This document shows, piece by piece, positions 45,130 to 64,000 of a DNA stretch of 64,000 nucleotides (positions are counted from its first letter, which is position 1; each line of letters begins with the position of its first letter). A program made the translations under genes and the position numbers. The stretch lies in the NCBI GenBank assembly GCA_944320775.1, contig CALUIV010000006.1, forward strand, positions 60,895-124,894, in the 5' to 3' direction. Below the pieces are notes generated by a model that was given only the letters and a program-made list of their open reading frames with translations, ran no database searches and was not told the DNA's origin. Source of the stretch: an uncultured Paraprevotella sp. (GTDB lineage: Bacteria; Bacteroidota; Bacteroidia; Bacteroidales; Bacteroidaceae).

Positions 45130-45139
45130 AATAAAGACT

Positions 45140-45165
45140 CCCGGCCTTGCTTAGACAAGACCGGG
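45140..45165 (+). terminator. Hairpin after speA, weak terminator
   Basis: CCCGGCCTTG and CAAGACCGGG pair at 9 of 10 positions around a 6-nt loop. The following AATTACCTATTTATAT is only moderately T-rich, so read-through to argB is possible. Confidence 0.55.
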
Positions 45166-45193
45166 AATTACCTATTTATATATAAGAAAGTTT

Positions 45194-45967
45194 ATGAAGG
45201 AAAAACTGACTGTAGTCAAAGTAGGAGGAAAAATCGTCGAGGAAGAAAGTTCACTGAAGCAACTGTTACACGATTTTGCGAAAATAGAAGGACATAAAGT
45301 ACTGGTACACGGCGGTGGACGTTCTGCAACCAAAATAGCTGCTGAACTGGGTATCGAAAGCCAAATGGTAAACGGACGACGCATTACGGATGCAGCTATG
45401 CTTGATGTAGTCACCATGGTATACGGTGGTCTGGTAAACAAAAAAATCGTTGCCGGACTACAGGCGCAAGGAATGAATGCACTCGGACTGACCGGTGCAG
45501 ATATGAATGTCATCCGCTCGCATAAACGCCCGGTCAAAGAAATCGACTACGGATTTGTCGGTGATGTAGATCAGGTCAACGGTAATATTTTAGGAAAGTT
45601 AATTGATGAAGGGATGGTCCCCGTTATGGCTCCATTAACCCACGACGGTAAAGGAAATATGCTTAATACCAATGCCGATACGATTGCCGGAGAAACGGCC
45701 AAAGCACTTGCCAACCAATACGACGTTACCCTGATGTTCTGTTTCGAAAAGAAAGGAGTCTTAAGTGATCCGGAAAACGATGAAAGCGTCATCAGCCACA
45801 TCACAGAAGAAGATTTCCAGCGCTACACTCAGGATGGAACAATTCAAGGTGGTATGATCCCGAAACTGGAAAACGCATTCAGCGCCATTCATGCAGGAGT
45901 AAGCAAGGTTATCATTACACAAGCTACTGCTATCGACGGAACACAAGGAACCATTATTGAAAAATAA
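45194..45967 (+). CDS. argB: N-acetylglutamate kinase family (possibly N-succinylglutamate kinase)
   Basis: A 257-residue amino-acid kinase with the ArgB motifs VKVGGKIVEEESSL, VHGGGRSATKIAAELGI, NADTIAGETAKAL and GGMIPKLENA. It performs the second step of arginine synthesis. Bacteroides species are known to use succinylated rather than acetylated intermediates, so the true substrate may be N-succinylglutamate. It follows speA, placing arginine synthesis and consumption side by side. Confidence 0.94.
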   Translation: MKEKLTVVKVGGKIVEEESSLKQLLHDFAKIEGHKVLVHGGGRSATKIAAELGIESQMVNGRRITDAAMLDVVTMVYGGLVNKKIVAGLQAQGMNALGLTGADMNVIRSHKRPVKEIDYGFVGDVDQVNGNILGKLIDEGMVPVMAPLTHDGKGNMLNTNADTIAGETAKALANQYDVTLMFCFEKKGVLSDPENDESVISHITEEDFQRYTQDGTIQGGMIPKLENAFSAIHAGVSKVIITQATAIDGTQGTIIEK

Positions 45968-46091
45968 AAAAAATAATTTTCATAAGAAGCTTATAGTCTG
46001 CTAATTACGTCGCACTTAAAATAATTTTCTAAAAAAACAGCGAAATGCATGTAACTTTTTAAACGTGCAACCGTCTTTATAATTGTAAGAG

Positions 46092-46604
46092 ATGAAAGAA
46101 ATCAGTTTTCGCAACGACATTCTCCCACTAAAGGAGAAACTCTTCCGAACAGCACTGCGCATTACGATGGATTCGGCAGAAGCAGAAGATGTCGTTCAGG
46201 ATACACTGATTCGCGTCTGGAACAAACGGGAGGAATGGCCGAACATTATATCCATTGAGGCTTATTGTATGACCATCTGCCGGAATCTGGCTCTTGACCG
46301 AAATGAACGGATGGGAACAGATTACATTGAAATCGATGAACAGGTACACAAACTGACCGATGCAACAACAACTCCTTCCGAACGTCTGGAACAACAGGAA
46401 AGTTTAAAACTGGCCCAGCATCTGCTAAACCAGCTTCCCGAAAAACAACGCCTGATTATGGAACTCAGGGAAATTGAAGGGAAAAGCTATAAAGAAATCG
46501 CTGTAATGCTGGATATCAGCGAAGAACAGGTAAAGGTCAATTTGTTCCGGGCACGGCAAAAAATAAAGAAACAGTTTTCAGAAATAAACCAATATGGACT
46601 ATAA
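46092..46604 (+). CDS. ECF-type RNA polymerase sigma factor
   Basis: A 170-residue sigma-70 family member with region 2 (LFRTALRITMDSAEAEDVVQDTLIRVWNKR) and region 4 (LPEKQRLIMELREIEGKSYKEIAVMLDISEEQVKVNLFRARQ) and no regions 1 or 3, as in ECF sigma factors. It overlaps the next gene by 11 bp and forms a three-gene operon with a putative anti-sigma factor and a DUF4252 protein. No TAnnTTTG box was found upstream, which is compatible with an autoregulated ECF promoter. Confidence 0.93.
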   Translation: MKEISFRNDILPLKEKLFRTALRITMDSAEAEDVVQDTLIRVWNKREEWPNIISIEAYCMTICRNLALDRNERMGTDYIEIDEQVHKLTDATTTPSERLEQQESLKLAQHLLNQLPEKQRLIMELREIEGKSYKEIAVMLDISEEQVKVNLFRARQKIKKQFSEINQYGL

Positions 46605-47133
46605 GTATATCGAACAATTGCTCGAACGCTTTTGGAACTGCGAAACGACCCTGGAAGAAGAAGCTATTATTCGTGCTTTTTTCGCCCAAAAGGAAATACC
46701 GGAACATCTGGTACGTTACAAAAGCCTGTTCCAATATGAGCAAACCTTGAAAGAGGCTAAGTTGAGCGATGATTTCGATAAGAAAGTCCTGGCTCTGACT
46801 GAAGAAAAAGACACGGCTGTAAAAGCACGCCGCATCACCTATACGCAACGGTTGATGCCTTTGTATAAAAGTGCAGCCGTAATCGCCATGATCCTGACGT
46901 TAGGTAATGCAGCGCAGAAATCAGTCGGCATAGAAACAGACAATCAGGTTTGCGACTATAATTACGAAACATACCAGGATACTTATAAAGATCCGGAAGT
47001 GGCCTATAACCAGATTTCTTCAGCATTAAAGCTGATCTCAGAAAGTCTGGCAGCCGATAGTGACAGTGTTTCATCCGACAGTGTACAACAGGATGTGGAC
47101 AAAAATAAAACAACAGCACGTATCCGGCCATGA
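46594..47133 (+). CDS. Putative membrane-anchored anti-sigma factor
   Basis: A 179-residue protein. The N-terminal cytoplasmic part (YIEQLLERFWNCETTLEEEAIIRAFF) resembles the sigma-binding segments of Bacteroidetes anti-sigma proteins. One transmembrane helix follows near residues 91-106 (AVIAMILTLGNAA), with a periplasmic C-terminus. The start lies inside the sigma gene (11-bp overlap) and the stop overlaps the next start by 4 bp, so all three proteins are probably made together. The role is inferred mainly from position and topology. Confidence 0.75.
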   Translation: MDYKYIEQLLERFWNCETTLEEEAIIRAFFAQKEIPEHLVRYKSLFQYEQTLKEAKLSDDFDKKVLALTEEKDTAVKARRITYTQRLMPLYKSAAVIAMILTLGNAAQKSVGIETDNQVCDYNYETYQDTYKDPEVAYNQISSALKLISESLAADSDSVSSDSVQQDVDKNKTTARIRP

Positions 47134-47612
47134 AGGGAAAACTGATTTTCCTGTTGACGATGATGTCACAACAAGCAATAGGAGTACAAGGACAGGATTT
47201 TGCATCGCGGTTCATGCACGAAGTTCAAAAGGATACGACAATACGCTGCGAAACCATCAGTCCAAAAATGTTGGAAACGCTGGTAAAGACCAAGGAAGAA
47301 GAAAAGGAAAAAACAAAATCACTGATCTCAAAACTGAAAAGTGTCCGCATCATAAATGCGCCTAAACGAAGCGTTTCATATTTCCAAAAAGCGGAAACTC
47401 TATTGGAAAACAACAAGAATCGTTTCCAGGAAATCTCCGAGGATCGAAATGATGGGACAAAAAAAATATTCCTGAGAAAAAAAGACGATGTCATCCTTGA
47501 ATTAGTCCTGCTTAATCTGGATTCATTACAAAACAAACTGACCATCGTCAATCTGACTGGAGAAATGGATAATGATTTTATCCAGGAACTCTCAGAAAAC
47601 GAAGGATTATAA
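47130..47612 (+). CDS. DUF4252 secreted protein
   Basis: A 160-residue protein with an N-terminal signal-like segment and the DUF4252 pattern ISPKMLETLV, KLKSVRIINA, a run of charged residues, then LTIVNLTGEMDNDFIQEL at the end. It is third in the sigma/anti-sigma/DUF4252 operon, a combination frequent in Bacteroidetes, and may be an effector or sensor for that sigma factor. The molecular function is unknown. A strong terminator lies about 115 bp downstream; nothing else is evident between 47613 and 47727. Confidence 0.82.
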   Translation: MKGKLIFLLTMMSQQAIGVQGQDFASRFMHEVQKDTTIRCETISPKMLETLVKTKEEEKEKTKSLISKLKSVRIINAPKRSVSYFQKAETLLENNKNRFQEISEDRNDGTKKIFLRKKDDVILELVLLNLDSLQNKLTIVNLTGEMDNDFIQELSENEGL

Positions 47613-47727
47613 AATAACAAATGAACATTTTTTATGCTTTTTCTATAAACAAGTTAGTGCTTAATAAAACAAAATGAAACTGTGAAGTTTCAATTCTCTC
47701 AAATTTTTTCATAACATACTAACGACG

Positions 47728-47760
47728 AAAAAGGCTGCCTGGACAGGTAGCCTTTTTTGT
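47728..47760 (+). terminator. Intrinsic terminator after the sigma factor operon
   Basis: AAAAAGGCTGCCTG and CAGGTAGCCTTTTT form a 14-bp stem with one G-U pair and a 2-nt loop, ending in a T run. Confidence 0.9.
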
Positions 47761-47923
47761 TTGTCGGGTATAGCCAAAAGGGAAATAGTTGTCCTAACAA
47801 GTTTTAAATGAACCTTATATCCCAAACAAGCACATCAAAGAACTTAAAAACGAAGCAAGACGAAAAAAAAGGCAGAAAATTATATATATCACGGGAAAAA
47901 GAAGATAATATACTTTTTTTCGC

Positions 47924-47931
47924 TATCTTTG
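47924..47931 (+). promoter_or_regulatory. -7 box for the beta-galactosidase gene
   Basis: TATCTTTG matches TAnnTTTG and lies 65 bp before the ATG. No -33 element is clear, which may mean activator dependence. Confidence 0.5.
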
Positions 47932-47996
47932 TGACAATTATTCCATTATACTCAGAACATAAGAGAAACATATCAATTTAACTAAATTATACCATA

Positions 47997-50900
47997 ATGA
48001 GAAAAATCACATTAAGTTTGATTCTTTGCTGCATGACGATGGGCTCATTTGCCCAGCAGCCATTAGGCGGCTTCCTCTATGGAACAGAAGCCCATCCGGC
48101 CGGAACCGAATGGGAGGCACCGGAGAAACTGTCGCTCAACAAAGAACAGCCGCGCGCTTATTTCTTCTCGTTCGGCGATGTGGAAAGTGCGAAAAAAGTG
48201 CTTCCACAGAACAGTAAGTTCTGGCAAAGCCTGGACGGACAGTGGAAATTCCACTGGGCTCCGAATCCAAGCGAACGTCCGGAGAAATTCTATGAAACCA
48301 GTTACGACGTAAGCGGTTGGGATGACATTACGGTTCCTTCCTGCTGGAATGTAGCCGGTATCCAGAAAGACGGTTCACTGAAATACGGTGTGCCCATCTA
48401 CTGTAACCAGCCGGTCATCTTCAAGCACACCGTAGCCGTAGGCGACTGGAAAGGCGGTGTGATGCGCGAACCGAATAAGGACTGGACCACTTACAAATAC
48501 CGTAACGAGGTGGGTTCTTATCGCCGTACCTTCCACGTAGACGAGGACTGGAAAGACCGCGAAGTCTATATCAACTTCGACGGCGTGAACTCATTCTTCT
48601 ATATCTGGATCAACGGACAGTACGTAGGTTTCTCAAAGAACTCACGTAACACGGCCAGCTTCGACATCACCAAATATCTGGTGAAGGGAGAAAATACCGT
48701 AGCTGTAGAGGTTTACCGTAACTCTGACGGTTCGTTCCTCGAAGCACAGGATATGTTCCGCCTGCCGGGTATCTTCCGTAACACGTACCTGACCGCCACT
48801 TCAAAAGTACAAATCCGCGACATGAAGATCAATACGGATCTGACCGCCAACGGTGCCTCGGTTGAAGTAAAGGCCATGATGCGTAATCTGGACAAGAAGA
48901 AAATCAAAAACTACACGCTGCAATACAGTGTTTATGAAAACAAACTGTATTCCGACGATATCGTAGGTCAGGTAGGCGAACCGGTCGTATCCGGCAAGTT
49001 TGAACTTGACAAGGGCGAGAACACAACAATTGATACAAAGTTTGAAATTGCTGATGCCAAACTCTGGTCGGCAGAAAAGCCAAACCGCTACACACTGGTA
49101 GCTGAACTGAAAGACAAGAAGGGACGTACGGTTGATGTAATTTCTTCTTACTTCGGTATCTGCAAGGTGGAAATCCGCGACACAGAGGCTAAGGATGATG
49201 AATTCGGACTGGCCGGTCGCTACTTCTACGTCAACAACAAACCGGTGAAATTAAAAGGTGTGAACCGTCAGGAAATCAATCCGAATACGGGTAACACAAT
49301 CACTCCGGAACAGATGGAAGAGGAAATCATGATTATGAAACGCGGTAACATCAACCACGTACGTAATTCACACTACTCTTGTAATCCATACTGGTATTAT
49401 CTGTGTGACAAATACGGTATCTATCTGGAAGACGAAGCAAACTTGGAAAGCCATGAATATTATTATGGAGAGGCTTCTCTATCTCATGTTCCAGAATTCA
49501 AGGATGCCCACGTAGCCCGTGTCATGGAATTGGTACATGCCCATGTAAACCATCCTTCCATTGTCATCTGGTCATTAGGTAATGAGGCTGGTCCGGGTAA
49601 AAACTTCGTAGCAGCTTACGATGCTATTAAGGCATTTGATACCAGCCGTCCGGTACAATATGAACGGAACAATGATATCGTAGATATGGGTTCAAACCAG
49701 TATCCTTCCATTGCCTGGACCCGTGAAGCTGTCAAGGGTAAATACAACATGAAATATCCGTTCCACATCTCAGAATACGCTCATGGTATGGGTAATGCCG
49801 GCGGTAACCTGGAAGACTACTGGGAAGCCATCGAATCAACGAACTTCTTCTGTGGTGCTGCTATTTGGGACTGGGTAGATCAAGCACTCTACAATTACGA
49901 CAAAGCAACCGGAACCAAATATCTGGCCTATGGTGGTGATTTCGGCGACAAACCAAACGACGGTATGTTCTGTATGAACGGAATCCTGTTCCCAGGGCAC
50001 AATCCGAAACCAGCTTACTACGAAGTAAAGAAAGTATATCAGAACGTAGGTGTTAAAGCGGTCGACATCAAGAAAGGACAGATCGAAGTGTTCAACAAGA
50101 ACTATTTCGAACCGATGACTGATGTTTATATGGTTTGGTCGCTTTGGAAAGACGGACAGAAAGTTCAGGAAAGCAATGCTTTCAAGGGACCGCGCAACAT
50201 CCTCGGACCACGCGAGAAGGCCGTTTATACAATTCCTTTCGATTACAGCAAGTTGGATGCTAACAGTGAATATTTCGTAAAAGTACAGTTCTTGCTGGGT
50301 AAGGATATGCCTTGGGCCAAGAAAGACTATGTACAGATGGAAGAACAGCTTCTGGTCAAAGAGGCTAATAAGTTCCCAACTATCGCTGAAAGCGTTAAGG
50401 GCGAGAAAGTAAACTTCGTAGCCGGAAAAGACATGCACACCGTGAAAGGTAGCAACTTCGAGGCTAAGTTTGACAATGCAACCGGTAGCATCTACAGCCT
50501 GACTTATAACGGCAAGACGATTTTTGCCAACGGTAACGGGCCGAAACTGGATGCGCTCCGTGCACCGGTCGATAATGATAACTGGATTTATACCCAATGG
50601 TTTGCCCGCGGCCTGCACAACCTGAAACACAAAGCACTGAACGAAATTCACTATCAGCAGAAAGACGGTTCTGTAGTTATCGCATACACAGTCGAGTCTC
50701 AGGCTCCTTGTGCCGGTGGTATTCAGGGTGGCAGCTCTGGCCGTTATACGATCACAGAAGGACGTGCCTTCGGACCGGATGACTTCAAATTTACGACGAA
50801 CCAGATCTGGACAATTTATGCAGACGGTTCTATCGAGCTGGAATCAACCATCTCTTCAAGCGAACCAAGTCTGGTATTACCACGTTTGGGCTATGTAATG

Positions 50901-52004
50901 AAGACACCGAAAGACCTGAGCAACTATACTTACTACGGACGTGGTCCTCAGAACAACTATAACGACCGTAAGAACGGCGCTTTCGTTGAATTGTATCAAA
51001 GCACAGTAAAAGACCAGTTCGTCAACTTCCCGAAACCTCAGTCTATGGGTAACCGCGAGGATGTACGCTGGTGTGCCTTGACAGACAACAGCGGCAAGGG
51101 AGCTCAGTTCATCTCTACATCAACATTCTCTACATCAGCTCTGCCTTGGTCTGCCCTGCAGATGACCTTGGCTCCACATCCTTATCAGTTGCCGGAATCA
51201 GACGGAAATTACCTGCATCTGGATATGAAGGTTACTGGTCTGGGTGGTAACAGTTGTGGTCAGGGTGGTCCGTTGGAAGAAGACCGCATCAAGGCCGGTA
51301 CCCATTCTATGGGCTTCATCATCCGTCCGGCAAGCCAAAACATGACGGAAACTGCAAAAGTTTCTGCAGCAGGTGAAATGCCACTCGGAATTTCACGTGA
51401 CCGTGCCGGTAAAGTAACCATTTCTACAGAAAAGGCCGGTGCTGTTATTTGCTACAGCCTGAACAAGAGCAAGAAGGTTTATACTTATACCGAACCAATC
51501 AATATGCGTGATGGCGGTACTATTACAGCATGGTATAAGGAGAATACCAACCTGAAGACAACAATGGCCTTTAACAAGATTGAAAACGTACCTCTCGAAG
51601 TACTCTATGCAAGTAGTGTAGAAAGCGGTGAAGGTGATCCGGAACATCTGGTTGACAATGATCCTGGAACATTCTGGCACACAATGTACTCGGTAACTGT
51701 AGCCAAATATCCACACTGGGTTGATATGGACTGCGGCGAAGTGAAAACAATCAAGGGATTCACTTATCTGCCACGTCAGGACAGTAACAACGGTAATATC
51801 AAGGGTTACAAATATCAGGTAAGTAACGATGGTAAGAACTGGGGTGATGTCATTGCATCCGGTGAGTTTGAAAACAACAGAAAAGAAAAACGCGTCATGC
51901 TGGACAAACCAATTAAAGCACGTTATGTACGCTTCACAGCACTGAGTTCACAAGACGGTCAGGACTTTGCAACCGGTGCAGAACTTGGTGTATTAGCAGA
52001 CTAA
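47997..52004 (+). CDS. Secreted GH2 beta-galactosidase with C-terminal carbohydrate-binding domains
   Basis: A 1335-residue enzyme with a signal peptide (MRKITLSLILCCMTMGSFAQ). The order is GH2 sugar-binding domain, immunoglobulin-like domain, TIM barrel, beta-galactosidase small-chain domain, a chitobiase-like segment (VTISTEKAGAVICYSLN) and a C-terminal F5/8-type discoidin domain (PHWVDMDCGEVKTIKGFTYL). The acid/base Glu is in SLGNEAGPG and the nucleophile region is HISEYAHGMGN. Terminal beta-galactose release from glycans outside the cytoplasm is likely. It is monocistronic, with no SusC/D pair nearby. Codon choice looks strongly biased, as in highly expressed genes. Confidence 0.93.
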   Translation: MRKITLSLILCCMTMGSFAQQPLGGFLYGTEAHPAGTEWEAPEKLSLNKEQPRAYFFSFGDVESAKKVLPQNSKFWQSLDGQWKFHWAPNPSERPEKFYETSYDVSGWDDITVPSCWNVAGIQKDGSLKYGVPIYCNQPVIFKHTVAVGDWKGGVMREPNKDWTTYKYRNEVGSYRRTFHVDEDWKDREVYINFDGVNSFFYIWINGQYVGFSKNSRNTASFDITKYLVKGENTVAVEVYRNSDGSFLEAQDMFRLPGIFRNTYLTATSKVQIRDMKINTDLTANGASVEVKAMMRNLDKKKIKNYTLQYSVYENKLYSDDIVGQVGEPVVSGKFELDKGENTTIDTKFEIADAKLWSAEKPNRYTLVAELKDKKGRTVDVISSYFGICKVEIRDTEAKDDEFGLAGRYFYVNNKPVKLKGVNRQEINPNTGNTITPEQMEEEIMIMKRGNINHVRNSHYSCNPYWYYLCDKYGIYLEDEANLESHEYYYGEASLSHVPEFKDAHVARVMELVHAHVNHPSIVIWSLGNEAGPGKNFVAAYDAIKAFDTSRPVQYERNNDIVDMGSNQYPSIAWTREAVKGKYNMKYPFHISEYAHGMGNAGGNLEDYWEAIESTNFFCGAAIWDWVDQALYNYDKATGTKYLAYGGDFGDKPNDGMFCMNGILFPGHNPKPAYYEVKKVYQNVGVKAVDIKKGQIEVFNKNYFEPMTDVYMVWSLWKDGQKVQESNAFKGPRNILGPREKAVYTIPFDYSKLDANSEYFVKVQFLLGKDMPWAKKDYVQMEEQLLVKEANKFPTIAESVKGEKVNFVAGKDMHTVKGSNFEAKFDNATGSIYSLTYNGKTIFANGNGPKLDALRAPVDNDNWIYTQWFARGLHNLKHKALNEIHYQQKDGSVVIAYTVESQAPCAGGIQGGSSGRYTITEGRAFGPDDFKFTTNQIWTIYADGSIELESTISSSEPSLVLPRLGYVMKTPKDLSNYTYYGRGPQNNYNDRKNGAFVELYQSTVKDQFVNFPKPQSMGNREDVRWCALTDNSGKGAQFISTSTFSTSALPWSALQMTLAPHPYQLPESDGNYLHLDMKVTGLGGNSCGQGGPLEEDRIKAGTHSMGFIIRPASQNMTETAKVSAAGEMPLGISRDRAGKVTISTEKAGAVICYSLNKSKKVYTYTEPINMRDGGTITAWYKENTNLKTTMAFNKIENVPLEVLYASSVESGEGDPEHLVDNDPGTFWHTMYSVTVAKYPHWVDMDCGEVKTIKGFTYLPRQDSNNGNIKGYKYQVSNDGKNWGDVIASGEFENNRKEKRVMLDKPIKARYVRFTALSSQDGQDFATGAELGVLAD

Positions 52005-52044
52005 CCCCCAAAAACAGTTTTTCGAATACTGTATAGTTAAAATA

Positions 52045-52086
52045 AAGGCTGTCTCTAGTTCTATGAACTGTGAGACAGCCTTCTTC
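52045..52086. terminator. Bidirectional terminator between convergent genes
   Basis: AAGGCTGTCTC (52045-52055) pairs with GAGACAGCCTT (52072-52082), with inner AGTTC/GAACT pairing. TTCTTC follows on the plus strand and TATTTTAAC on the minus strand, so it can serve both the galactosidase and CPBP genes. Confidence 0.85.
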
Positions 52087-52159
52087 ATATCTGATGACAA
52101 GATATTATTCCAAACAAGAACCAGGTTTGATCTAATCGGACAAAATTAAATTTAATAAT

Positions 52160-52945
52160 TTAAACCGATTTATTCCTGTTTTTCATATGGCGTTCAAAAA
52201 GCAGAATAAAAACAATTAATAAAAAACAGGAAAGAAACATCAGCCCACCAAAAAGCCAAGGACCTGTCAAATCAATCAAACGGGCATCACTCCCCCACAA
52301 GGTCCAAGTGACAACCCCAATGAGATTGTTCAACACATGCATGAAATAGGCAGAACTCAGACTACGCGTACGCCAATAAACCCAACAAAACAACATGCCA
52401 AGCAGTATGGCACCCGGAATTTGAGCAGGATTTCCATGTACAATTCCAAAAAGTAAGGCAGACACGGCTATAGCACTCCAAGGCATCAGACCTTGTTGTA
52501 ATAAGGCTCGCTGAATACCGGCACGAAACACCATTTCTTCCGCTAATGGTCCTAGTAAAACAATAGAGAACACGCCCAAAGGATGGCGCATCAGACGATC
52601 AAAATGAACAGCCATCTCATCGGATAACTGAAACAACTCAGTCAGTCCATTTACCCAAAATAATGCAGGCAAAAGCATCAGTACAAAAAAGAGATAATCT
52701 TTCGGACGCAACCTGCCGGTCGATAAATCTTCTCTACAGACCGCTCCCATCAAAAATAAAATGACAATCGTCAATGCATTCGAAAGACAAAGAATTATAG
52801 ACAAAAACAAGGGATTTGTCACCAGTTCACCCTCTGGAGCAATCCACCCTTTGGCCAACAAAACCCCACCAAGCATTCCAATTAAAGCAGATACCCCTAA
52901 CTGAATCCCCAGAAACAGCAGCAAAATAATAAAAGCACGTTTCAT
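52160..52945 (-). CDS. CPBP-family intramembrane metalloprotease
   Basis: A 261-residue integral membrane protein with about seven hydrophobic helices and the Abi/CPBP motifs: EEMVFRAGIQR (EExxxR), LFGIVHGNPAQIPGA (FxxxH) and HVLNNLIG (HxxxN). Members are Rce1-type proteases processing membrane substrates. It is the last gene of a three-gene operon after a HAD phosphatase and ribF. The substrate is unknown. Confidence 0.9.
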   Translation of the reverse strand: MKRAFIILLLFLGIQLGVSALIGMLGGVLLAKGWIAPEGELVTNPLFLSIILCLSNALTIVILFLMGAVCREDLSTGRLRPKDYLFFVLMLLPALFWVNGLTELFQLSDEMAVHFDRLMRHPLGVFSIVLLGPLAEEMVFRAGIQRALLQQGLMPWSAIAVSALLFGIVHGNPAQIPGAILLGMLFCWVYWRTRSLSSAYFMHVLNNLIGVVTWTLWGSDARLIDLTGPWLFGGLMFLSCFLLIVFILLFERHMKNRNKSV

Positions 52946-52970
52946 TCCAATATTTATAAAAAGAACAATC

Positions 52971-53909
52971 TTATTTCTCAGATATCAACAATAAATCCGA
53001 AACCTCCCGGGCATCCCGTTTCAACTGATTTACTAATTCTCCGGTGTTCCGAAAACGTTTTTCATCCCGCAGTCGTTTTACAAAAGCCACCTGAAGATGC
53101 CGCCCATATAAATCCCCCTCAAAATGCAACAAATGGACTTCTATGGAAATCTTATTGCCATTATCCATTGTCGGCCGGTTTCCAATGTTCAACATTCCAG
53201 CATACATTTCTCCATTATCTAAAGTTACCCGAACAGCATAAACCCCAGTTTTCGGTATAAGCTGACAAGAATCATCTGGCTGGATATTAGCCGTAGGAAA
53301 ACCTAACTCATGACCTAAATGAAAACCGTGTACCACTTTCCCACTAAGAGTATACAAACGCTTCAAACATCCAGCAGCCATTTCAACCTCACCCTCAAGC
53401 AGCAAGCTGCGGACAACCGAGGAACTGACATGAACACCACTCCACTCCAATGCTTCAGCATGAACAATATCAATGCCCAGCTCCTTACCATAACGGACGT
53501 AATCCGCAAATGTATCTTTTCCTCCCCGACCAAAATGATGATCATAACCAATGACCAGTACACGTACTTGCAGACGATCACGCAAAATCTCACGCATAAA
53601 ATCATAAGCAGAAAGTGCAGCCATTTCCGGAGTAAAATGCAATAAGACACAAGCATCAACCCCAGTTTGTTCCAACAACCGACATTTTTCTGCAAGTGTA
53701 GAAAGCAACAAAGGTTTATATTCACTTTGCATCACCTGCCTGGGATGAACGTCAAACGACACTAACAGGGCATCCAATCCACGTTCCATAGCCAAGCGCA
53801 AGACTTGTTCCACCAGAAACTGATGTCCGCGGTGCACCCCGTCGAAGAAACCAATTGTGGCCACACAAGGACCGGTAGCTACTTTATTTAAATCTCTTAT
53901 TAAAATCAT
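52971..53909 (-). CDS. ribF: Bifunctional riboflavin kinase/FAD synthetase
   Basis: A 312-residue RibF. The N-terminal nucleotidyltransferase domain shows GFFDGVHRGHQFLVEQ and VIGYDHHFGRGGKDT. The C-terminal flavokinase domain shows HELGFPTANIQP, KTGVYAVRV, NIGNRPTMDNG and LYGRHLQVAFVKRLRDEKRF. It makes FMN and FAD from riboflavin. It lies 15 bp after the HAD gene and 25 bp before the CPBP gene, on the same strand. Confidence 0.96.
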   Translation of the reverse strand: MILIRDLNKVATGPCVATIGFFDGVHRGHQFLVEQVLRLAMERGLDALLVSFDVHPRQVMQSEYKPLLLSTLAEKCRLLEQTGVDACVLLHFTPEMAALSAYDFMREILRDRLQVRVLVIGYDHHFGRGGKDTFADYVRYGKELGIDIVHAEALEWSGVHVSSSVVRSLLLEGEVEMAAGCLKRLYTLSGKVVHGFHLGHELGFPTANIQPDDSCQLIPKTGVYAVRVTLDNGEMYAGMLNIGNRPTMDNGNKISIEVHLLHFEGDLYGRHLQVAFVKRLRDEKRFRNTGELVNQLKRDAREVSDLLLISEK

Positions 53910-53924
53910 TCAAGCTAACAAACA

Positions 53925-54539
53925 TTAAAGAAACAAGGGCATCCAATCATCAGCCTCCAATGGAGTAAATGTCTGCAATCCCAAATTACGGGCTGCAACA
54001 CAATTCGCCTCAAGATCATCAATAAAAATTGTGTCTGAGGGTTCCAGACTTTCAGCTTCAAGTACTTTTCGGAAAATAGCCTCATCGGGTTTCTGCAAAT
54101 GTAACTTATAGGACAGATAAATACGATCAAAATAATCCTGAGCACTCAACCCCATGATTGAAAACAAATGTCGCTCGGAATACTCCCAATGAATACTATT
54201 CGTATTGCTCAGCAAAAATACCCGGTAGCGCTGACGTAAACGAAGTAATGCTTCCAAACGCCGCTTTGGAATACGAACCAACATGCTATTCCAAGCATGA
54301 GCTAATTCCATATCTGTAATTTCCGGACGTAAATCGGCTAAATCACGCAACTGCTGATAAAAATCAGCTTCCGTACAGGTTCCGTTCTCCAACGCAACGA
54401 AAGGAGCCAGATCAAACTTATTCCATTGCTCTATCTGGCGAACACCAAGTTTTTGAAAGGCATCAAATACTGCCTGACGATCCAGATCGACCAGAACTCC
54501 GCCAAAATCAAAAATAATATTCTTCAAATCTTGTTCCAT
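53925..54539 (-). CDS. HAD-superfamily hydrolase (YihX-like)
   Basis: A 204-residue phosphatase with motif I FDFGGVLVDLD, motif II LLSNTNSIHWEY, the Lys motif LQKPDEAIFRKVLE and motif III FIDDLEANCVAARNLG. The helical cap is inserted after motif I. It resembles sugar-phosphate phosphatases of the YihX branch. It is first in the HAD-ribF-CPBP operon, and an FMN-phosphatase or other flavin role is possible from context but not shown. Confidence 0.92.
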   Translation of the reverse strand: MEQDLKNIIFDFGGVLVDLDRQAVFDAFQKLGVRQIEQWNKFDLAPFVALENGTCTEADFYQQLRDLADLRPEITDMELAHAWNSMLVRIPKRRLEALLRLRQRYRVFLLSNTNSIHWEYSERHLFSIMGLSAQDYFDRIYLSYKLHLQKPDEAIFRKVLEAESLEPSDTIFIDDLEANCVAARNLGLQTFTPLEADDWMPLFL

Positions 54540-54601
54540 AATTTATTGGTCTACAAAATAACCTCCGAATTCGATAATACCTGCAAATTTACAAATTTTT
54601 A

Positions 54602-54661: not shown

Positions 54662-54735
54662 GGACTTGTAGCTCAGTTGGTTAGAGCAACAGACTCATAA
54701 TCTGGAGGTCCCAGGTTCAAGCCCTGGCTGGTCCA
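54662..54735 (+). tRNA. tRNA-Met (CAT)
   Basis: A 74-nt cloverleaf with D stem GCTC/GAGC, anticodon loop CTCATAA (anticodon CAT), T arm CCAGG-TTCAAGC-CCTGG and an acceptor GGACTTG/CTGGTCC containing one mismatch and one G-U pair. It is not the initiator type. Elongator Met is the likely identity, but a CAT-reading tRNA-Ile2 cannot be excluded from sequence alone. It borders a genomic island and is the probable integration target. Confidence 0.93.
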
Positions 54736-54745
54736 CTCAAAAAAC

Positions 54746-54848: not shown

Positions 54849-54870
54849 TTTGTTTACCGTTTGTTTACCG
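54849..54870 (+). repeat. Abutting 11-bp direct repeats before the integrase gene
   Basis: TTTGTTTACCG occurs twice back to back (54849-54859 and 54860-54870), one helical turn apart and 18 bp before the integrase ATG. This could be an arm-type recombinase site or an operator. Confidence 0.7.
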
Positions 54871-54888
54871 ATAAACACTAAATGTAAC

Positions 54889-56157
54889 ATGCTGACTATC
54901 AACGCAGAGATCAAAAAAGATGGAAAACGATCCGATGGTACTTACAATGTAAAACTCAGATTCACTCTAAATCGGAAAATGAGACGGCTGGCAACCAGTT
55001 TGTTCGTCACAAATAAGGATCTAAATAAAGATCTGAAAATCAAACAAAATTCACCTGTAAAACAAGAAATAGACAGACTTATTCTTGCCTATCAAGAAAA
55101 GTGCGCCAAGTTACAAGTAGACCTTAATAATTACTCCATAGACGAAGTAATGGATTACTTAAATGGAGAATATCAAAAACAACAAACCATTGACTTTATT
55201 AAATTCAGTAAAGAATGGATAGCCTCAACGACAATAAAAGGTGCTCCAAATTACACAACAGCCATAAATGCTTTAATTCGCTTTATTGGTAAAGAAAGTC
55301 TGGATATAAACTTGATCACTCTGGATTTTCTAGAAGAATTCAAAGCATTCTTAAATAGAGAACATGCAATACGTACCCAAAAGTTAATCCTACACAATAA
55401 ACGTGTTCCCTCAAATCGTAGCCTTTCACTTTATCTGATCTGCATAAAAAAGCTATTCAATGAAGCTAAAAAGAAGTACAATAAAATAGAAAAGAATCTG
55501 ATTCTTATCCCCCACTCGCCATTTGAGAATTTTATAATGCCAAAACAAGAAGCAACACGTAAAAGAGCAATTCCTGCAAACATTATTAAAAAAGTGTGGG
55601 AACTTCCTTACAAGGATATAAAGAAAGGATACAAGTCCACCTGTCGCTATAATTTAGCAAAAGACTGTTTTATACTTTCATTTTGTCTCATGGGAATTAA
55701 TTCGGCAGATCTTTATAATGCCACAGAAATACAAGGCAACACAATCATTTATAACAGGACTAAGACAAAAGACCGCAGACTTGATGGCGCAAAAATGATG
55801 GTTGATATTCCTAGAATAGTTCTACCAATTATAGAAAAATACAGAGACAAAACAGGTAAACGATTATTCAATTTCTATCAATATTACTGTGACGAAAAAG
55901 GTTTTAATAAAGCCATTAATTATGGATTGAAAGAAATAGGTTCTATTTTAGAAATTGACGATTTAGAATATTATGCAGCACGCCATAGCTGGGCTACTAT
56001 AGCATTAAATAAAGTTGGCATAGACAAATACATAGTTCATGCTGCATTAAATCACATAGATGATTCCATGAAAGTAACCGATATTTATATTGAACGTGAC
56101 TTTGTAAATGAGAATAAAGCAAATACTAAAGTAGTACAATATGTGTTTGGTGAGTAA
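54889..56157 (+). CDS. Tyrosine recombinase/integrase (Bacteroidetes type)
   Basis: A 422-residue integrase starting at MLTINAEIKKDGKRSDG; the upstream reading from 54850 begins with TTG and is rejected. The N-terminal arm-binding domain (TYNVKLRFTLNRKMRRLATS) is followed by a SAM-like core-binding domain and the catalytic domain. The H-x-x-R box is ARHSWATIAL, the later H is in ALNHIDDS and the nucleophile Tyr is in VTDIYIERDF. The first catalytic Arg region (FCLMGINSADLYNAT) lacks the usual Arg at that position, as in several Bacteroidetes integrases. It lies about 150 bp from tRNA-Met and should catalyse integration of the island there. Confidence 0.92.
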   Translation: MLTINAEIKKDGKRSDGTYNVKLRFTLNRKMRRLATSLFVTNKDLNKDLKIKQNSPVKQEIDRLILAYQEKCAKLQVDLNNYSIDEVMDYLNGEYQKQQTIDFIKFSKEWIASTTIKGAPNYTTAINALIRFIGKESLDINLITLDFLEEFKAFLNREHAIRTQKLILHNKRVPSNRSLSLYLICIKKLFNEAKKKYNKIEKNLILIPHSPFENFIMPKQEATRKRAIPANIIKKVWELPYKDIKKGYKSTCRYNLAKDCFILSFCLMGINSADLYNATEIQGNTIIYNRTKTKDRRLDGAKMMVDIPRIVLPIIEKYRDKTGKRLFNFYQYYCDEKGFNKAINYGLKEIGSILEIDDLEYYAARHSWATIALNKVGIDKYIVHAALNHIDDSMKVTDIYIERDFVNENKANTKVVQYVFGE

Positions 56158-56271: not shown

Positions 56272-57249
56272 ATGGAACAATCGCAATTAATAAAGGAACT
56301 ACCAGATTTAAAGATTGGTTGGTGGGAAAGTTATAAATGTCTTGATGAACCACTTCTTGAATATGTGTGGGAAGTAGCCAACCATTTTGTAAGCTACGAA
56401 GGAGATATTTCTATAGCACCAGCTAAGTTTGTCAACAGATATATAACAAGTAAATTAACTCCAGAGGAAAATGTTTTGAGACTAAAAGAAATGGGAATAG
56501 ATAAGTCTTTAGATGATTTTATAGCCCCTAATTTCAAAAAGATGGATATATCTTTCAAAGATAGATTTCTTGAAAATGAGGACTTGCAGAATACAATTAA
56601 AGCATTTGGTCTGGACGTAAGTAAACTTTGGTATCTGCTTCTTTTTGTTCATGATTATATTGAAGACTTTGGGACAAATGCTCCATCGCTGAAAAAAAGT
56701 GAAGTTCAAGATATAGGCGACTTTGTAGATAATCTATCAGACAGCACTGGCATTATTCTAACCAAAGGAAGAAAAAAGAACTTTATTACCAGTGAAAAAA
56801 AGACTATTGAATTTATTCAATTCGCACTGGATTATTACATAAAAACATACAATGATATAATAAACCATAATTTAGCACCAAATGATAAACTTAACCTCCT
56901 TAAAGATATTGGTTTAAACCATTTTCTGGAACATGGACAAGCCATAGATTTTGAGAACCAAAGAACTCTTGAAATAACATTCAAGAAATGGAAGTTTGCA
57001 GACATGTTCCAGTATTTCCTAAAGGACAGGAAAGCTGACAAGAAAAATATATCCAACATAAATGTAAAAGTCTCAGCAGATAAAATAATGTTTATTTCAA
57101 GACTTATCTACACTGTTGGGTATGATGGAAAGCGTTACAATGAAGAATATGATCCTGATGGTAACAAAAACAGGAAGCTGTCAAATCTACTTCGAAAATA
57201 TAGAAATGAAGACTTTCCAGACTTTGCTAATCATTATTACCTATTTTAA
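56272..57249 (+). CDS. Island protein of unknown function, paralogue 1
   Basis: A 325-residue soluble protein that I cannot assign to a family. It is clearly paralogous to the 344-residue protein at 59526-60560: both begin LIKELPDLKIGW/LIEELPDLMIGW, share NEDLQNTIKAF and KLWYLLLF-type segments, and end with the conserved LISRLIYTVGYDGKRYN pattern followed by DGNKNR-LSNLLR. The conserved C-terminus, rich in Lys, Arg and Tyr, could be a nucleic-acid-binding or catalytic part, but no known motif is visible. It follows the integrase by 114 bp. AT-rich like the rest of the island. Confidence 0.75.
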   Translation: MEQSQLIKELPDLKIGWWESYKCLDEPLLEYVWEVANHFVSYEGDISIAPAKFVNRYITSKLTPEENVLRLKEMGIDKSLDDFIAPNFKKMDISFKDRFLENEDLQNTIKAFGLDVSKLWYLLLFVHDYIEDFGTNAPSLKKSEVQDIGDFVDNLSDSTGIILTKGRKKNFITSEKKTIEFIQFALDYYIKTYNDIINHNLAPNDKLNLLKDIGLNHFLEHGQAIDFENQRTLEITFKKWKFADMFQYFLKDRKADKKNISNINVKVSADKIMFISRLIYTVGYDGKRYNEEYDPDGNKNRKLSNLLRKYRNEDFPDFANHYYLF

Positions 57250-59525: not shown

Positions 59526-60560
59526 ATGATTATGTCTAATGAAAAACACCACCTAATAGAAGAACTACCCGATTTAATGATTGGTTGGGACAGAGCATAC
59601 GAGTATCAGGATGTTCCGCTTTTGGATTATGCTTGGGAAGTAGCCAATTATTTTCTACCAGACTATGTAGAAACAGATCAAGAGATGGTACCAGCCGAAT
59701 CCATTGCTCCTGCACTATTCGCAAACAGATACTCTGAAAGAAATCTTTCTATTGAAGAGAGATATGAAAGAGCGAAACAAATGGGGATGTGCAATACAAC
59801 CTTTGAGAATTATTCTAAGGATCATAAGGCATATCGAAAATTAGATGATTCATTTAAGGAAAAATTTCTCATGAATGAAGACTTACAAAATACCATCGAG
59901 GCCTTTCACTTGGACATCAGCAAATTTTGGTATTTGCTTCTATTCATTTATGACTTTATAGAGGACTTAGAAATAAACACACCTGATATAAAAAAATCCA
60001 CTTTGGAAGACTTTAGCTATTTTTATGCCAACCTGTTAAAAAGTACCAATATCACTTTGCGGGAAAACAACAAAAAACGTTATATTGTGGAACGAGAAGA
60101 TACAATCAATATTATCCGGATTGCATTACAACACTTCATCAACACTTACAGTGAGATTGTACATAACGAGCAAGATGATAGAAACACCATGCTTAAGAAA
60201 TTAAAAGAAATTGGACTGAAAGGATTCATTGATAACAACCTACCACAAAATTTTATCTTCGCTGAAAGAGATGGTTTGGACATATCTCATAAAAAATGGA
60301 AATTTACAGATATGTTTCTATTCTTTTTTGTGAACAGGAAAGCTTATTCAACTCCCAATAAAAAGATTAAAGTCTCCAAGGATAAGATGATGCTTATTTC
60401 GCGACTGATTTATACAGTTGGTTATGATGGCAAAAGATATAATCATGAATACGACTCGGAAGGCAATAAAAATCGCATGTTATCCAATCTTCTTAGAAGA
60501 TATAAGAAAGAAAAATTTCCATCCGTTATAGCTAAAAACTATCATGTAATATCACTTTAA
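59526..60560 (+). CDS. Island protein of unknown function, paralogue 2
   Basis: A 344-residue protein paralogous along its whole length to the product of 56272-57249, with a few short insertions. Shared blocks include the N-terminal ELPDL-IGW, the central MNEDLQNTIEAFHLDISKFWYLLLF, HKKWKFTDMF, and the C-terminal LISRLIYTVGYDGKRYN block. The second Met (59532) gives an N-terminus closer to paralogue 1 and may be the real start. The 3' flank also resembles that of paralogue 1, so gene and flank were duplicated together. No function is recognised. Confidence 0.75.
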   Translation: MIMSNEKHHLIEELPDLMIGWDRAYEYQDVPLLDYAWEVANYFLPDYVETDQEMVPAESIAPALFANRYSERNLSIEERYERAKQMGMCNTTFENYSKDHKAYRKLDDSFKEKFLMNEDLQNTIEAFHLDISKFWYLLLFIYDFIEDLEINTPDIKKSTLEDFSYFYANLLKSTNITLRENNKKRYIVEREDTINIIRIALQHFINTYSEIVHNEQDDRNTMLKKLKEIGLKGFIDNNLPQNFIFAERDGLDISHKKWKFTDMFLFFFVNRKAYSTPNKKIKVSKDKMMLISRLIYTVGYDGKRYNHEYDSEGNKNRMLSNLLRRYKKEKFPSVIAKNYHVISL

Positions 60561-60998: not shown

Positions 60999-61529
60999 AT
61001 GGATGCAATAATTTTCAAAGATAATGTGTATGTCTACATTAGACGTAAAGAATGTAAAGATGAAAATATAAAGCAAAAAGAAGAAGTTTTTGAATTTCCA
61101 GACATAAGTCAAATTAATACCTATAATTTATATGGTGGTAGAGTAGAAATCAAACTGAGGCAAAACATAGATAAATGTGAAATAAAAATAGATGGAATAT
61201 CCATTCTCAAATTAGAAGAAAACTTGAATCTTGAAGATAAATTATCACCTAGCATAGTTTGTGCTTATCTTAACCAGCTTCATCAGCTTGGCATTGATAC
61301 TTTCTTAGCAAATTACAAAGTTGCCATAGAGAATCTAAAAATAGAAACAATGAACAAATTAAACGAGAGCAAAACAACAAACAACAAAACATTGATTTCA
61401 GATCTTAATGATATATTGGATAAGCTTACAGCCATTTTATTCGCTTTATGGATGAATATGAATGCAGGACTAGATAATCATATATATACAGAAACTTATA
61501 ATAATATCATAAACTTATATTTTCAATGA
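60999..61529 (+). CDS. Small partner protein of the HSP90-like/NOV-like ATPase
   Basis: A 176-residue soluble protein with no recognised family. The N-terminal half is strand-rich and charged (VYVYIRRKECKDENIKQKEE), and the C-terminal half is helical (LNQLHQLGIDTFLANYKVAIENLK, LNDILDKLTAILFALWMNMN). The stop overlaps the start of the 801-residue ATPase gene by ATGA, so the two are translationally coupled and probably act together, perhaps as regulator, specificity subunit or adaptor. Confidence 0.72.
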   Translation: MDAIIFKDNVYVYIRRKECKDENIKQKEEVFEFPDISQINTYNLYGGRVEIKLRQNIDKCEIKIDGISILKLEENLNLEDKLSPSIVCAYLNQLHQLGIDTFLANYKVAIENLKIETMNKLNESKTTNNKTLISDLNDILDKLTAILFALWMNMNAGLDNHIYTETYNNIINLYFQ

Positions 61530-63931
61530 ATGGGATAGGTGAAATCTTCGATAATACGGACAAAGAGCAATTGTTGTCAATACCAGCACAACGCCTTATC
61601 GAAAAATTGTCTTTATTGAAGAACAGAAAATCTGTCGCTTTAAGAAGATGGTTTTGGGAGCTCCTTCAAAATGCCAGTGATTATAATGAATCTGTCTCTG
61701 TAAGACTAGATATTTATCCAAATAGGGTCGATTTCAGGCATAATGGAGAGCCTTTCAGTTTACGTGATGCACTAAATCTAATTTCACCGGATTCAAATAA
61801 AAGAGAAGACCAAATCCATAAAGACAATATCGGAAAGTTTGGTACAGGATTGGTGTCAACTCATATTCTGTCTGCAGTAATTCATACAGAAGGAATATGT
61901 AAAATAGAAGACAAAGGATATTTTCATTTCTCAGTAGACTTGAATCGAGAAGATTTTGAAAAGAAAGAACTGCTAATCCAAACAATAAACACTACAAAGA
62001 ACAGTTTAAAGGATTCCTTGAAAGAAACACCATATACCAACGATTTCCATACACTGTTTTCATATAACCTTGATAAAACCTTGCCATCTTTAACACCTAC
62101 AAGTTGCCACGATATTGATTTGGAATATCTATACAACGTGCTCCCTTATACTCTTTGTTTTATGCCTAAAATTAAGTCTGTAGAAATCAAAGACTATAGA
62201 AATGGAGAACATTATTATTCCATATCAATCATAAATAGAATTAATAATTCAATTCAATTTAAAATAATAAAAGATGGATGTGTTACTGAGCCTTTATTTA
62301 AATATTTCGAATATAACAATATAGCATCTGTTGTTCCTATAGAGAATAATACTATCCTTGCATATCCAAAAGAAGTATCTAAAATATTCTGCGGCTTACC
62401 TTTAATAGGAACAGAAGACATTGGCTTACCCATAGTTATAAATAGTTTTGGATTTGAGCCAACCACAGAAAGAGAAGGAGTTGAACTAGAACCTGTAAGT
62501 AATGAAGAGAATAGAAAAATTATGTTCGACTCTATAGAATTATACAAAAAAATATTGGATTACGTTGAAGAGAAACAACTACAACATGCTTATTTACTTA
62601 CACATATCAGACGTAAATACAATGGAACACAAGCATCCAATACTCAATTTTACAATCAAGTCATCACCCCATACAAACAACAGATATTAAATCATTCTAT
62701 TGTTCCAAGTGCATGTGGTGACTTCGTAAAACTGTCTCAAATAAAACTTCCTATAAATGATTCTAAACCAGATGATGTTCTATATACAAATGCATCTTTC
62801 ATATCCAAAGAATTATTACCCATTGAAGAAGAATATAAAGGATGGTTTGAGGCTACAGATTTTACATTATTTCCAGAGCATAAATACAACTATGAAGATT
62901 TAGCTTCAGCAATAGAATCAATCAACAATCTATTCTCCACAGGTAAGAATCTAGAGGATACCAAGAAGTGGCTGAAGCAGTGCATATTATACTTAAAGAT
63001 GTGCAATAAATATATATTCTCAGAAAAGAAAATACTCCCAAACCAAATAGGAACTTTATGTCTGGCAAGAAATTTATATGTTGATTTGGAACTTCCAAAA
63101 GAATTAAAAGAAGTCTATAATCAACTGTATGAATCAGAGAAGAAAAAAATAGAAGATAAATTATTAGATAAAGAGTTCAATGACTTTGATGTAGTTAATT
63201 GCATTTATAAAATAGAAGATATTGCAAAAGAGATTGACTCTGAAATTCAAAATAAATTTGCTAAAGAAGCAGGTAATATAAGTTCAATTGTCAAACCATT
63301 GAACGGACTCTATTCATGGATGTCGCAAACAGAAGCCACCAAAGAACAACTACAGATGTGGTTTCATTGGTATTATCCCAAACGCGCCTCTCTTATAGTC
63401 GATATGCTAACAGACACACAAAGAGAACAAGCTCTAACAATTGCGCAAAGTGGTAAAATGGAAGTATTAGCAAAATTAGCTTCGTCCGAATTAACTTCTG
63501 AAGAATTTAATTTGTTAATAGCAAACATAAAAAAACTACCAGCTGCACTTGGATTGCTAGGAGATAAAGTAGATGATAGAATTTTTGCAGATTCAGAGAC
63601 TGGGGACATAGGAGAAGAACTGGTGTACAAAGATTTACTTCAGAAATATCCAAAAACAAAAGGCTATACTGTAGAATGGAGCAGTAGAGATAAAAATGAA
63701 CCATGCTATGATTTTGAGATTCAATTTAATGGTAAAACGATCTGCTATTATGACGCTAAAACGACAACTAGAGGATTAGCTAATGCTGACTCTATTCCAT
63801 TCTTCATGAGAAAATCCCAATGGAAATTCCTAAATGAACTATCAGAAGACAAAGCTTATTATATAGCCAGAGTTTTTATTGGCGACAATGAAAATATTCA
63901 ATATATTCGCATTATCATGAATAATTGCTGA
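61526..63931 (+). CDS. HSP90-like (GHKL) ATPase with C-terminal DUF3883/NO VEIN-like nuclease-type domain
   Basis: An 801-residue protein. The N-terminal third is a sacsin/HSP90-like GHKL domain: N box Glu45-Leu-Leu-Gln-Asn49 in WELLQNASD, G1 region RHNGEPF (71-77) and G2 region NIGKFGTGLVS (101-111). A long alpha-rich middle follows. The C-terminal 110 residues match the DUF3883 (NO VEIN C-terminal) pattern, with GEELVYKDL (Glu697), YDFEI (Asp729) and YYDAKTT (Asp743, Lys745) in the spacing expected of PD-(D/E)xK nucleases, then RKSQWKFL. An ATP-gated nuclease is inferred. Its setting in an integrase-borne island favours a defence role. Confidence 0.82.
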   Translation: MNGIGEIFDNTDKEQLLSIPAQRLIEKLSLLKNRKSVALRRWFWELLQNASDYNESVSVRLDIYPNRVDFRHNGEPFSLRDALNLISPDSNKREDQIHKDNIGKFGTGLVSTHILSAVIHTEGICKIEDKGYFHFSVDLNREDFEKKELLIQTINTTKNSLKDSLKETPYTNDFHTLFSYNLDKTLPSLTPTSCHDIDLEYLYNVLPYTLCFMPKIKSVEIKDYRNGEHYYSISIINRINNSIQFKIIKDGCVTEPLFKYFEYNNIASVVPIENNTILAYPKEVSKIFCGLPLIGTEDIGLPIVINSFGFEPTTEREGVELEPVSNEENRKIMFDSIELYKKILDYVEEKQLQHAYLLTHIRRKYNGTQASNTQFYNQVITPYKQQILNHSIVPSACGDFVKLSQIKLPINDSKPDDVLYTNASFISKELLPIEEEYKGWFEATDFTLFPEHKYNYEDLASAIESINNLFSTGKNLEDTKKWLKQCILYLKMCNKYIFSEKKILPNQIGTLCLARNLYVDLELPKELKEVYNQLYESEKKKIEDKLLDKEFNDFDVVNCIYKIEDIAKEIDSEIQNKFAKEAGNISSIVKPLNGLYSWMSQTEATKEQLQMWFHWYYPKRASLIVDMLTDTQREQALTIAQSGKMEVLAKLASSELTSEEFNLLIANIKKLPAALGLLGDKVDDRIFADSETGDIGEELVYKDLLQKYPKTKGYTVEWSSRDKNEPCYDFEIQFNGKTICYYDAKTTTRGLANADSIPFFMRKSQWKFLNELSEDKAYYIARVFIGDNENIQYIRIIMNNC

Positions 63932-63975
63932 AAACGGTTGATATCCGTTCACCCAAAACGGTGATATCCGTTCAC
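63931..63975. repeat. Tandem 21-22-bp repeat after the ATPase gene
   Basis: AAAACGGTTGATATCCGTTCAC (63931-63952, shown here as AAAACGG, TTGATAT, CCGTTCAC) recurs at 63955-63975 with one T fewer. Each copy contains the inverted half-sites AACGG and CCGTT. The pair starts at the ATPase stop codon. Confidence 0.75.
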
Positions 63976-64000
63976 TTTTCATCCTCTAAACCTATGGCGA

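Follow-up and report, generated by a model that had tools for sequence, protein, structure and literature searches.

What does a gene pair do that couples a small protein of an undescribed family to an HSP90-like ATPase with a nuclease-type domain at its C-terminus? Such a pair closes a 64,000-nucleotide stretch of DNA (the window) from an uncultured Paraprevotella sp. (assembly GCA_944320775.1, contig CALUIV010000006.1); the window makes up the final 64 kb of this 124,894-base contig (C6), and nucleotide and residue numbers are given in window coordinates. Our reading, to which we assign a probability of roughly 0.6 from sequence comparison and structure prediction, is that the pair forms an anti-phage or anti-plasmid module, in which an HSP90-like switch would control a nuclease with the help of a small dedicated partner.

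The two open reading frames (ORFs) of the pair (Table 1) overlap in the four bases ATGA, as an earlier note drawn up from the letters of the DNA alone had described, and the fusion of an HSP90-like ATPase to a NO VEIN/DUF3883 domain that it read in the large protein is upheld by the searches that follow. These are based on 80 loci encoding relatives of the ATPase, kept from 323 found (L-numbers denote loci), on 46 aligned ATPase sequences and on 16 full-length sequences, the latter comprising the window protein and 15 relatives of 29–56% identity; all conservation counts of 16 and 46 include the window sequence. In its own genome the large protein matches only itself, and its length is the same as that of the proteins at L039 and L041.

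The N-terminal two thirds of the large protein is, as judged from its motifs and profile matches, an HSP90/sacsin-type ATPase. Residues 4–554 match the PADLOC model PDLC03967 for TmtA (Tiamat) with an E-value of 5.4e-109, the best stretch covering profile positions 4–567 of 1063 and thus not the whole profile, and residues 40–119 match the NCBIfam sacsin-like ATP-binding domain NF047352 (E = 2e-16). Pfam HATPase_c gave a hint only (E = 0.23), and a profile of the 46 ATPase sequences matched HtpG (7u4c_A, E = 4e-05). Glu45, Asn49, Asp52 and Gly103-x-Phe105-Gly106-x-Gly108 are invariant in 46/46 sequences, in keeping with motifs I (Glu/Asn) and III (GxFGxG) of GHKL/HSP90 ATPases; Arg141 and Arg316 are invariant to the same extent, and it is our guess that one of them is the catalytic arginine. 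Where the earlier note had marked GHKL N, G1 and G2 boxes, the N and G2 boxes stand, and the G1 box is not canonical, the usual Asp-x-Gly of motif II being replaced by His72-Asn73-Gly74, followed by Phe77, with the His present in 45 of the 46 sequences and Asp found at position 73 in some relatives. In human sacsin, according to PMC9880540, Asn160 and Phe164 replace the adenine-binding Asp79 and Met84 of Hsp90, the Phe standing four residues after the Asn, and Asn73 and Phe77 of the window protein match these replacements. An AlphaFold2 model of the large protein computed from the 46 sequences had a mean predicted local distance difference test (pLDDT) score of 86.5, and the best 50 of 670 Foldseek rows contained HSP90, TRAP1, GRP94 and MORC2 structures, with low template modelling (TM) scores of 0.16–0.29 on the query, for which differing angles between the domains and an unshared C-terminus are the probable reasons.

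The C-terminal ~116 residues form, on the strength of homology, a NO VEIN/DUF3883-type domain. Residues 686–801 align over their full span with the C-termini of 13 full-length relatives and of four cyanobacterial proteins that have a longer ATPase part. In the resulting alignment of 18 domains the Glu, Asp, Asp and Lys of the putative active site are invariant (18/18) and Gln765 varies; in the alignment of 16 full-length sequences, two of which (L045 and L052) diverge at the C-terminus and are aligned there with less certainty, Glu697, Asp729, Lys745 and Gln765 are invariant, with Asp (14) or Glu (2) at position 743. The nuclease-type residues singled out by the earlier note are hence conserved, and the structure prediction that it had proposed as a check on a PD-(D/E)xK core gave a matching result: the model contains helices 690–707, 751–756 and 763–771 and strands 714–718, 730–734, 737–745, 777–784 and 790–796, an order that includes the alpha-beta-beta-beta-alpha-beta core (judged by element order, coordinates not being superposed), and the motif residues lie on or beside the expected elements (helix 690–707, strands 730–734 and 737–745). 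Pfam NOV_C (PF13020) had no match in the window protein at E ≤ 1; it matched 8/16 full-length sequences at E ≤ 0.1 and, at E ≤ 1, 14 of the 18 homologous domains (best 1.5e-11), the window's own not among them. A profile built from the window domain and the 13 relatives found 17 of the 80 ATPase proteins at E < 1e-19, 13 of which had gone into the profile, along with a weak match to L054. DUF3883 has been termed "a novel REase domain" (PMC3710099), REase denoting restriction endonuclease, and has "presumably" been counted among type II restriction enzymes (PMC10609329). From the conserved residues and the model, we consider it likely that the domain is an active nuclease.

The small protein appears, from the searches made here, to represent an undescribed family that is detected only beside this ATPase. 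It had only sub-threshold matches in Pfam and PHROGs and none in NCBIfam or PADLOC, and the conserved stretches of its family are LYggRV, DGI, YLN, G-x-D-x-F, NYK and MN. By BLAST and profile searches, 4/80 loci hold a homologue, with 28–44% identity to the window's copy: directly upstream of the ATPase gene in L039, L040 and L041 (gaps of 12, −8 and 11 bases), and directly downstream in L046 from Nonlabens (Flavobacteriaceae; gap of 1 base). The two-gene unit proposed in the earlier note thus recurs in four other loci. In a quick tree of 81 ATPase regions, the window protein, L039–L042 and L046 form one clade (Shimodaira–Hasegawa approximate likelihood-ratio test 99), and the partner adjoins the ATPase in five of these six members, upstream in four and downstream in one, a distribution that needs two changes on the tree; in L042, an 80-residue ORF without detectable similarity occupies the partner's place, and the partner was not found. 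The remaining full-length NOV_C loci, eight in number (L043, L044, L048–L051, L055, L058), and the four cyanobacterial NOV_C loci yielded no small homologue; the pairing, being limited to one clade, is hence no general property of ATPase–NOV_C proteins. In some further loci, such as L047 and L061, little DNA lies upstream of the ATPase gene, so that absence of the partner there is not proven. The small gene was also found in none of 300 other genomes of the family, and its family profile, run against 393 genomes of the order, returned its own copy and nine marginal matches (16.8–19 bits, three with internal stops) that we took as noise; viral contigs and plasmids contained none.

This distribution bears directly on the strongest alternative, namely that the large protein is a defence system by itself, like Tiamat, and that the small gene, an accessory or passenger particular to the clade, could be dispensed with. 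The lack of a detectable homologue in the eight full-length and the four cyanobacterial NOV_C loci outside the clade, and in L042 within it, fits such a view, which we nevertheless hold to be unlikely: the gene has stayed adjacent in five of six clade members despite the low identity of its products, was kept through the swap from upstream to downstream in L046, and has no copy away from the ATPase among the order genomes (the marginal matches aside), viral contigs and plasmids. We lean, by a narrow measure and from these comparisons, towards the partner being needed for function.

The tree also places the pair within a wider family. Proteins with a fused nuclease domain (14 with NOV_C, including that of the window, and five divergent ones) occupy most of one side, of 21 rows; the five divergent relatives (L045, L047, L052–L054) are 889–929 residues long, and a divergent nuclease-like C-terminus was seen in L045 and L052. 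The other side (60 rows) contains the four cyanobacterial NOV_C proteins and 34 loci in which a clustering of the genes directly adjoining the ATPase gene on the same strand, run over the 80 loci, revealed one shared downstream gene family, at gaps of −11 to +16 bases (34/80, within L061–L117). Members of this family match SLFN_AlbA_2 (31 of 34), TIR_2 (7), CAP12-type TIR (4), TIR (2; the TIR matches may overlap), HEPN (2) and GAF (2). Two-gene units are thus common among these ATPases, a finding that favours a switch role for the ATPase but is no proof of it. A literature search on a link between the ATPase and AlbA_2, judged at the level of search results, turned up nothing relevant.

The pair is cargo of a mobile island (Table 1): an integrase gene follows a tRNA-Met gene, whose 3′ part is repeated on contig C21, where ARAGORN found no tRNA gene at the repeat copy. 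The contig breaks at an insertion-sequence end, which leaves the conserved residues of the large protein untouched; these terminal bases recur at both ends of a stretch of contig C25, the element's other end opens C21 (L149, 1–75), its ends are inverted (14/20 bases), and a 7-bp target duplication links bases 63919–63925 to C21 76–82. Because of the shared element ends and the target duplication, a single element most likely connects C6 to C21, giving a known island extent of most likely ~14 kb plus the joining element. Past the C21 repeat lie two genes whose relatives are found across the same tRNA-Met in genome G132 of the same genus (L152, with two longer ORFs lying between). Another species of this genus (G188, L153) has, after the same tRNA-Met, an integrase-like ORF unlike that of the window along with further small genes, so the site, with gene names read by eye in both genomes, is probably an insertion hot spot. 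The island portion of the window has a G+C content of 0.313 and the two genes of the pair have 0.273 and 0.321, vs 0.432 in the flank (bases 45001–54600).

Table 1 Features of the gene pair and its island in the window
Feature	Position	Strand	Evidence and remarks
tRNA-Met gene	54662..54736	+	Island insertion site
Attachment repeat	54690..54739	+	50 bp, equal to the 3′ part of the tRNA; exact copy at G000:C21:5096-5145
Tyrosine integrase of the island	54850..56157	+	Phage_int_SAM_5, 4.8e-10; phrog_216 integrase, 5.4e-4
Small gene	60999..61529	+	ORF, 176 residues; partner, undescribed family; predicted to be beta-rich in its N-terminal part and helical at the C-terminus
ATGA overlap of small and large gene	61526..61529	+	Suggests translational coupling
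Large gene	61526..63931	+	801 residues; ATPase of HSP90/sacsin type with a fused C-terminal NO VEIN (DUF3883)-type PD-(D/E)xK domain; compact TmtA (Tiamat)-class
GHKL/Bergerat ATPase domain	61631..61960	+	Residues ~36–145, ends approximate; motif residues, profile match to HtpG
NOV_C-type PD-(D/E)xK domain	63581..63928	+	Residues 686–801; Glu697, Asp729, Asp743-x-Lys745, Gln765
Insertion-sequence end	63926..64000		Repeated element; contig break at the 3′ end of the large gene, whose last codon and stop come from the element

Apart from the integrase and the pair, the island ORFs in the window had sub-threshold or no matches in Pfam, NCBIfam, PADLOC and PHROGs. Among them, the genes at 56272–57249 and 59526–60560 are paralogues (325 and 344 residues, 49% identical) without an above-threshold family. 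On C21 (L149, 1989–4598), an island gene of 869 residues has a weak C-terminal PDDEXK_1 match (E = 0.0011, below cut-off), a possible second nuclease in the same island.

The mobile setting, the low G+C content of the pair and the upstream position of a small gene that overlaps the large one would also suit an addiction unit of the toxin–antitoxin kind, in which the small protein neutralises a nuclease toxin and so retains the island in the population. The usual toxins of such units are far smaller than this 801-residue ATPase–nuclease, the gene order is reversed in L046, and eight other full-length NOV_C relatives as well as the AlbA_2 branch do without the small gene, all of which makes this explanation improbable.

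Relatives of the ATPase (E ≤ 1e-5) occur in 7/301 genomes of the family and 9/395 of the phylum, the own genome counted, a patchy distribution. Scans of genome contigs and viral contigs with the plain protein returned no relative, nor did alignment queries of viral contigs; phage sequences held no relative of the large protein, and plasmid sequences held relatives of the ATPase part only. A chaperone or genome-maintenance ATPase akin to sacsin and NO VEIN, with a non-catalytic, nucleic-acid-binding C-terminus and no part in defence, would agree with the HSP90 fold, the cellular roles of those two proteins and the ordinary genes beside some relatives, but is made very improbable by the E-D-(D/E)xK residues kept in 16/16 sequences, the patchy distribution and the carriage on an island.

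The neighbourhoods of relatives were scanned with PADLOC (E ≤ 1e-10; 81 neighbours from 13 loci, the best 25 of 137 families). Among these 25 families were a type I methyltransferase (two members, one model), a type I REase and a specificity subunit (one each), and SngB, SngC, HEC-05 and PDC-S06 (one each); around L039 in particular lie Shango SngA, SngB and SngC together with PDC-S06. A REase-ARP protein (8e-43) adjoins the L023 protein, whose locus is apparently on the same contig as L050. At L024 (4794–7171), a TmtA-class protein of 1549 residues stands beside a 214-residue gene and a gene for a reverse transcriptase (RVT_1, 5e-18).

Several observations weigh against a defence module built around a nuclease. 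The neighbour tallies were made without a control gene set, and L040, L049, L051 and L058 lie, by eye, mostly among ordinary genes; the neighbour check suggested in the earlier note did not refute its reading, the small gene standing beside the large one in four other loci, although the surroundings are ordinary in some, such as L040. Within the island, the large protein is the only PADLOC match among the seven window genes, with 0/3 among the ORFs on C21. The confidence of the model is modest in part of the C-terminal domain (block means of 72 and 58 in residues 741–760, and 54–64 in the linker 631–690); a profile search with the C-terminal domain against solved structures gave two chance matches and no nuclease, and the best 50 of 670 Foldseek rows, of the HSP90/MORC kind, include no solved nuclease. 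For the small protein, the model is weak (pLDDT 64.7), with an N-terminal beta-rich part and C-terminal helices, and a fold search gave no significant match (best E = 0.17). Set against these points are the TmtA match, which the earlier note had missed, and the island context; its proposal of a two-gene anti-phage or anti-plasmid module is thus supported in part, with the pairing limited to a single clade. Taken by itself, a role in defence is likely on the sequence comparisons.

We infer the following course of events, from dimer closure and nuclease activity to the target, the defence role and the part played by the small protein. The large protein would be an ATP-driven HSP90/sacsin-like clamp (residues 1 to ~640) carrying a PD-(D/E)xK nuclease (686–801). 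Invading nucleic acid or protein would trigger ATP binding, and the clamp, most likely a dimer, would close and thereby unite or unmask two C-terminal nuclease domains, so that either foreign DNA is cut (restriction) or the cell's own nucleic acid is degraded (abortive infection). Translated together with the large protein, the small one would serve as a sensor, adaptor or lock, giving recognition or restraining the enzyme. As a Pfam scan recognised no methylase among the island genes of the window, self and non-self would be told apart by the trigger, by DNA modification or by the partner. More tentatively, one family of HSP90/sacsin-like ATPases may serve bacteria as a general immune switch whose output can be exchanged, being either a fused nuclease or an adjoining AlbA_2 protein with or without TIR or HEPN domains, and the small partner of the window clade would act as infection sensor or safety lock; if so, Tiamat would be an HSP90-gated nuclease. 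The small partner and the AlbA_2–TIR/HEPN neighbours suggest how one switch could be wired to different effectors.

Comparison with known systems places the pair among several related designs. Plant NO VEIN unites an HSP90-like ATPase and NOV_C in one protein; the window protein has the same kind of fusion, although its domain lies below Pfam detection and it is encoded in a bacterial operon in a mobile setting. With human sacsin it shares the sacsin-like ATPase match and the Asn/Phe replacements, but it has a nuclease-type domain where sacsin has J and HEPN domains (PMC3710099); a lead from AbiA and the sacsin HEPN domain (PMC11077055) was dropped because it concerns a different domain. Through this family, sacsin and NO VEIN could be connected in their origin with bacterial defence. 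MORC and paraMORC proteins, with GHKL and S5-type ATPase parts, accompany restriction systems with RE-fold nucleases (PMC2292703), mostly as separate genes with helicases and methylases, whereas the window protein, with MORC2 among its fold matches, is fused, and neither of these was seen among the adjacent island genes. VcSduA (Shedu type I-D) comes close in architecture, with an N-terminal GHKL ATPase and a C-terminal PD-(D/E)xK domain, and changing either site abolishes phage protection (PMC12137116; GrwAB in the same source is DUF262-based, VcSduA being the GHKL system). Unlike the window protein with its sacsin-type ATPase, VcSduA carries a DUF4263 nuclease and works as one gene; family scans found no DUF4263 match in the window proteins, the 16 full-length sequences or the 18 C-terminal domains. 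An ATP-gated nuclease in defence is our favoured reading in view of the VcSduA precedent and the occurrence of MORC/paraMORC in restriction systems. Literature searches on TmtA/HSP90-like, NO VEIN and sacsin proteins in phage defence, judged at the level of search results, returned nothing on this ATPase family, and a 2026 review places Tiamat among systems of unknown, "largely uncharacterized" mechanism (PMC12926258).

The closest likeness is to Tiamat itself (PADLOC TmtA, PDLC03964–PDLC03972), with which the window protein shares the N-terminal HSP90-like ATPase and, in some members, the C-terminal NOV_C-type domain. In L031, from a genome of the same phylum, residues 13–1057 match PDLC03967 nearly end to end (profile 6–1061), with NOV_C at 897–977 (E = 7.1e-4, 20.0 bits vs a cut-off of 22.1) and an E-D-ExK-Q pattern found on visual inspection; the matches of L024 are to a different TmtA model (1.3e-224) and to NOV_C (7.5e-9), and L033 matches NOV_C (2.2e-6). 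Our own C-terminal profile matches the window, L023, L024 and L033 but not L031. The domains of L031 and L024 indicate that at least some proteins falling under PADLOC's Tiamat models end in a nuclease-type domain, and the TmtA match together with the shared C-terminus marks the window protein as a short Tiamat-class protein. Tiamat is a single-gene system with profile lengths of 1063–1782, whereas the window protein, at 801 residues, falls 262 below the nearest model and has a small partner, as in five of the six clade members. The pair is thus probably a compact two-gene relative of Tiamat and not a new kind of system, and this short form with its conserved catalytic candidates makes possible a direct test of whether an HSP90-type ATP clamp controls an immune nuclease.

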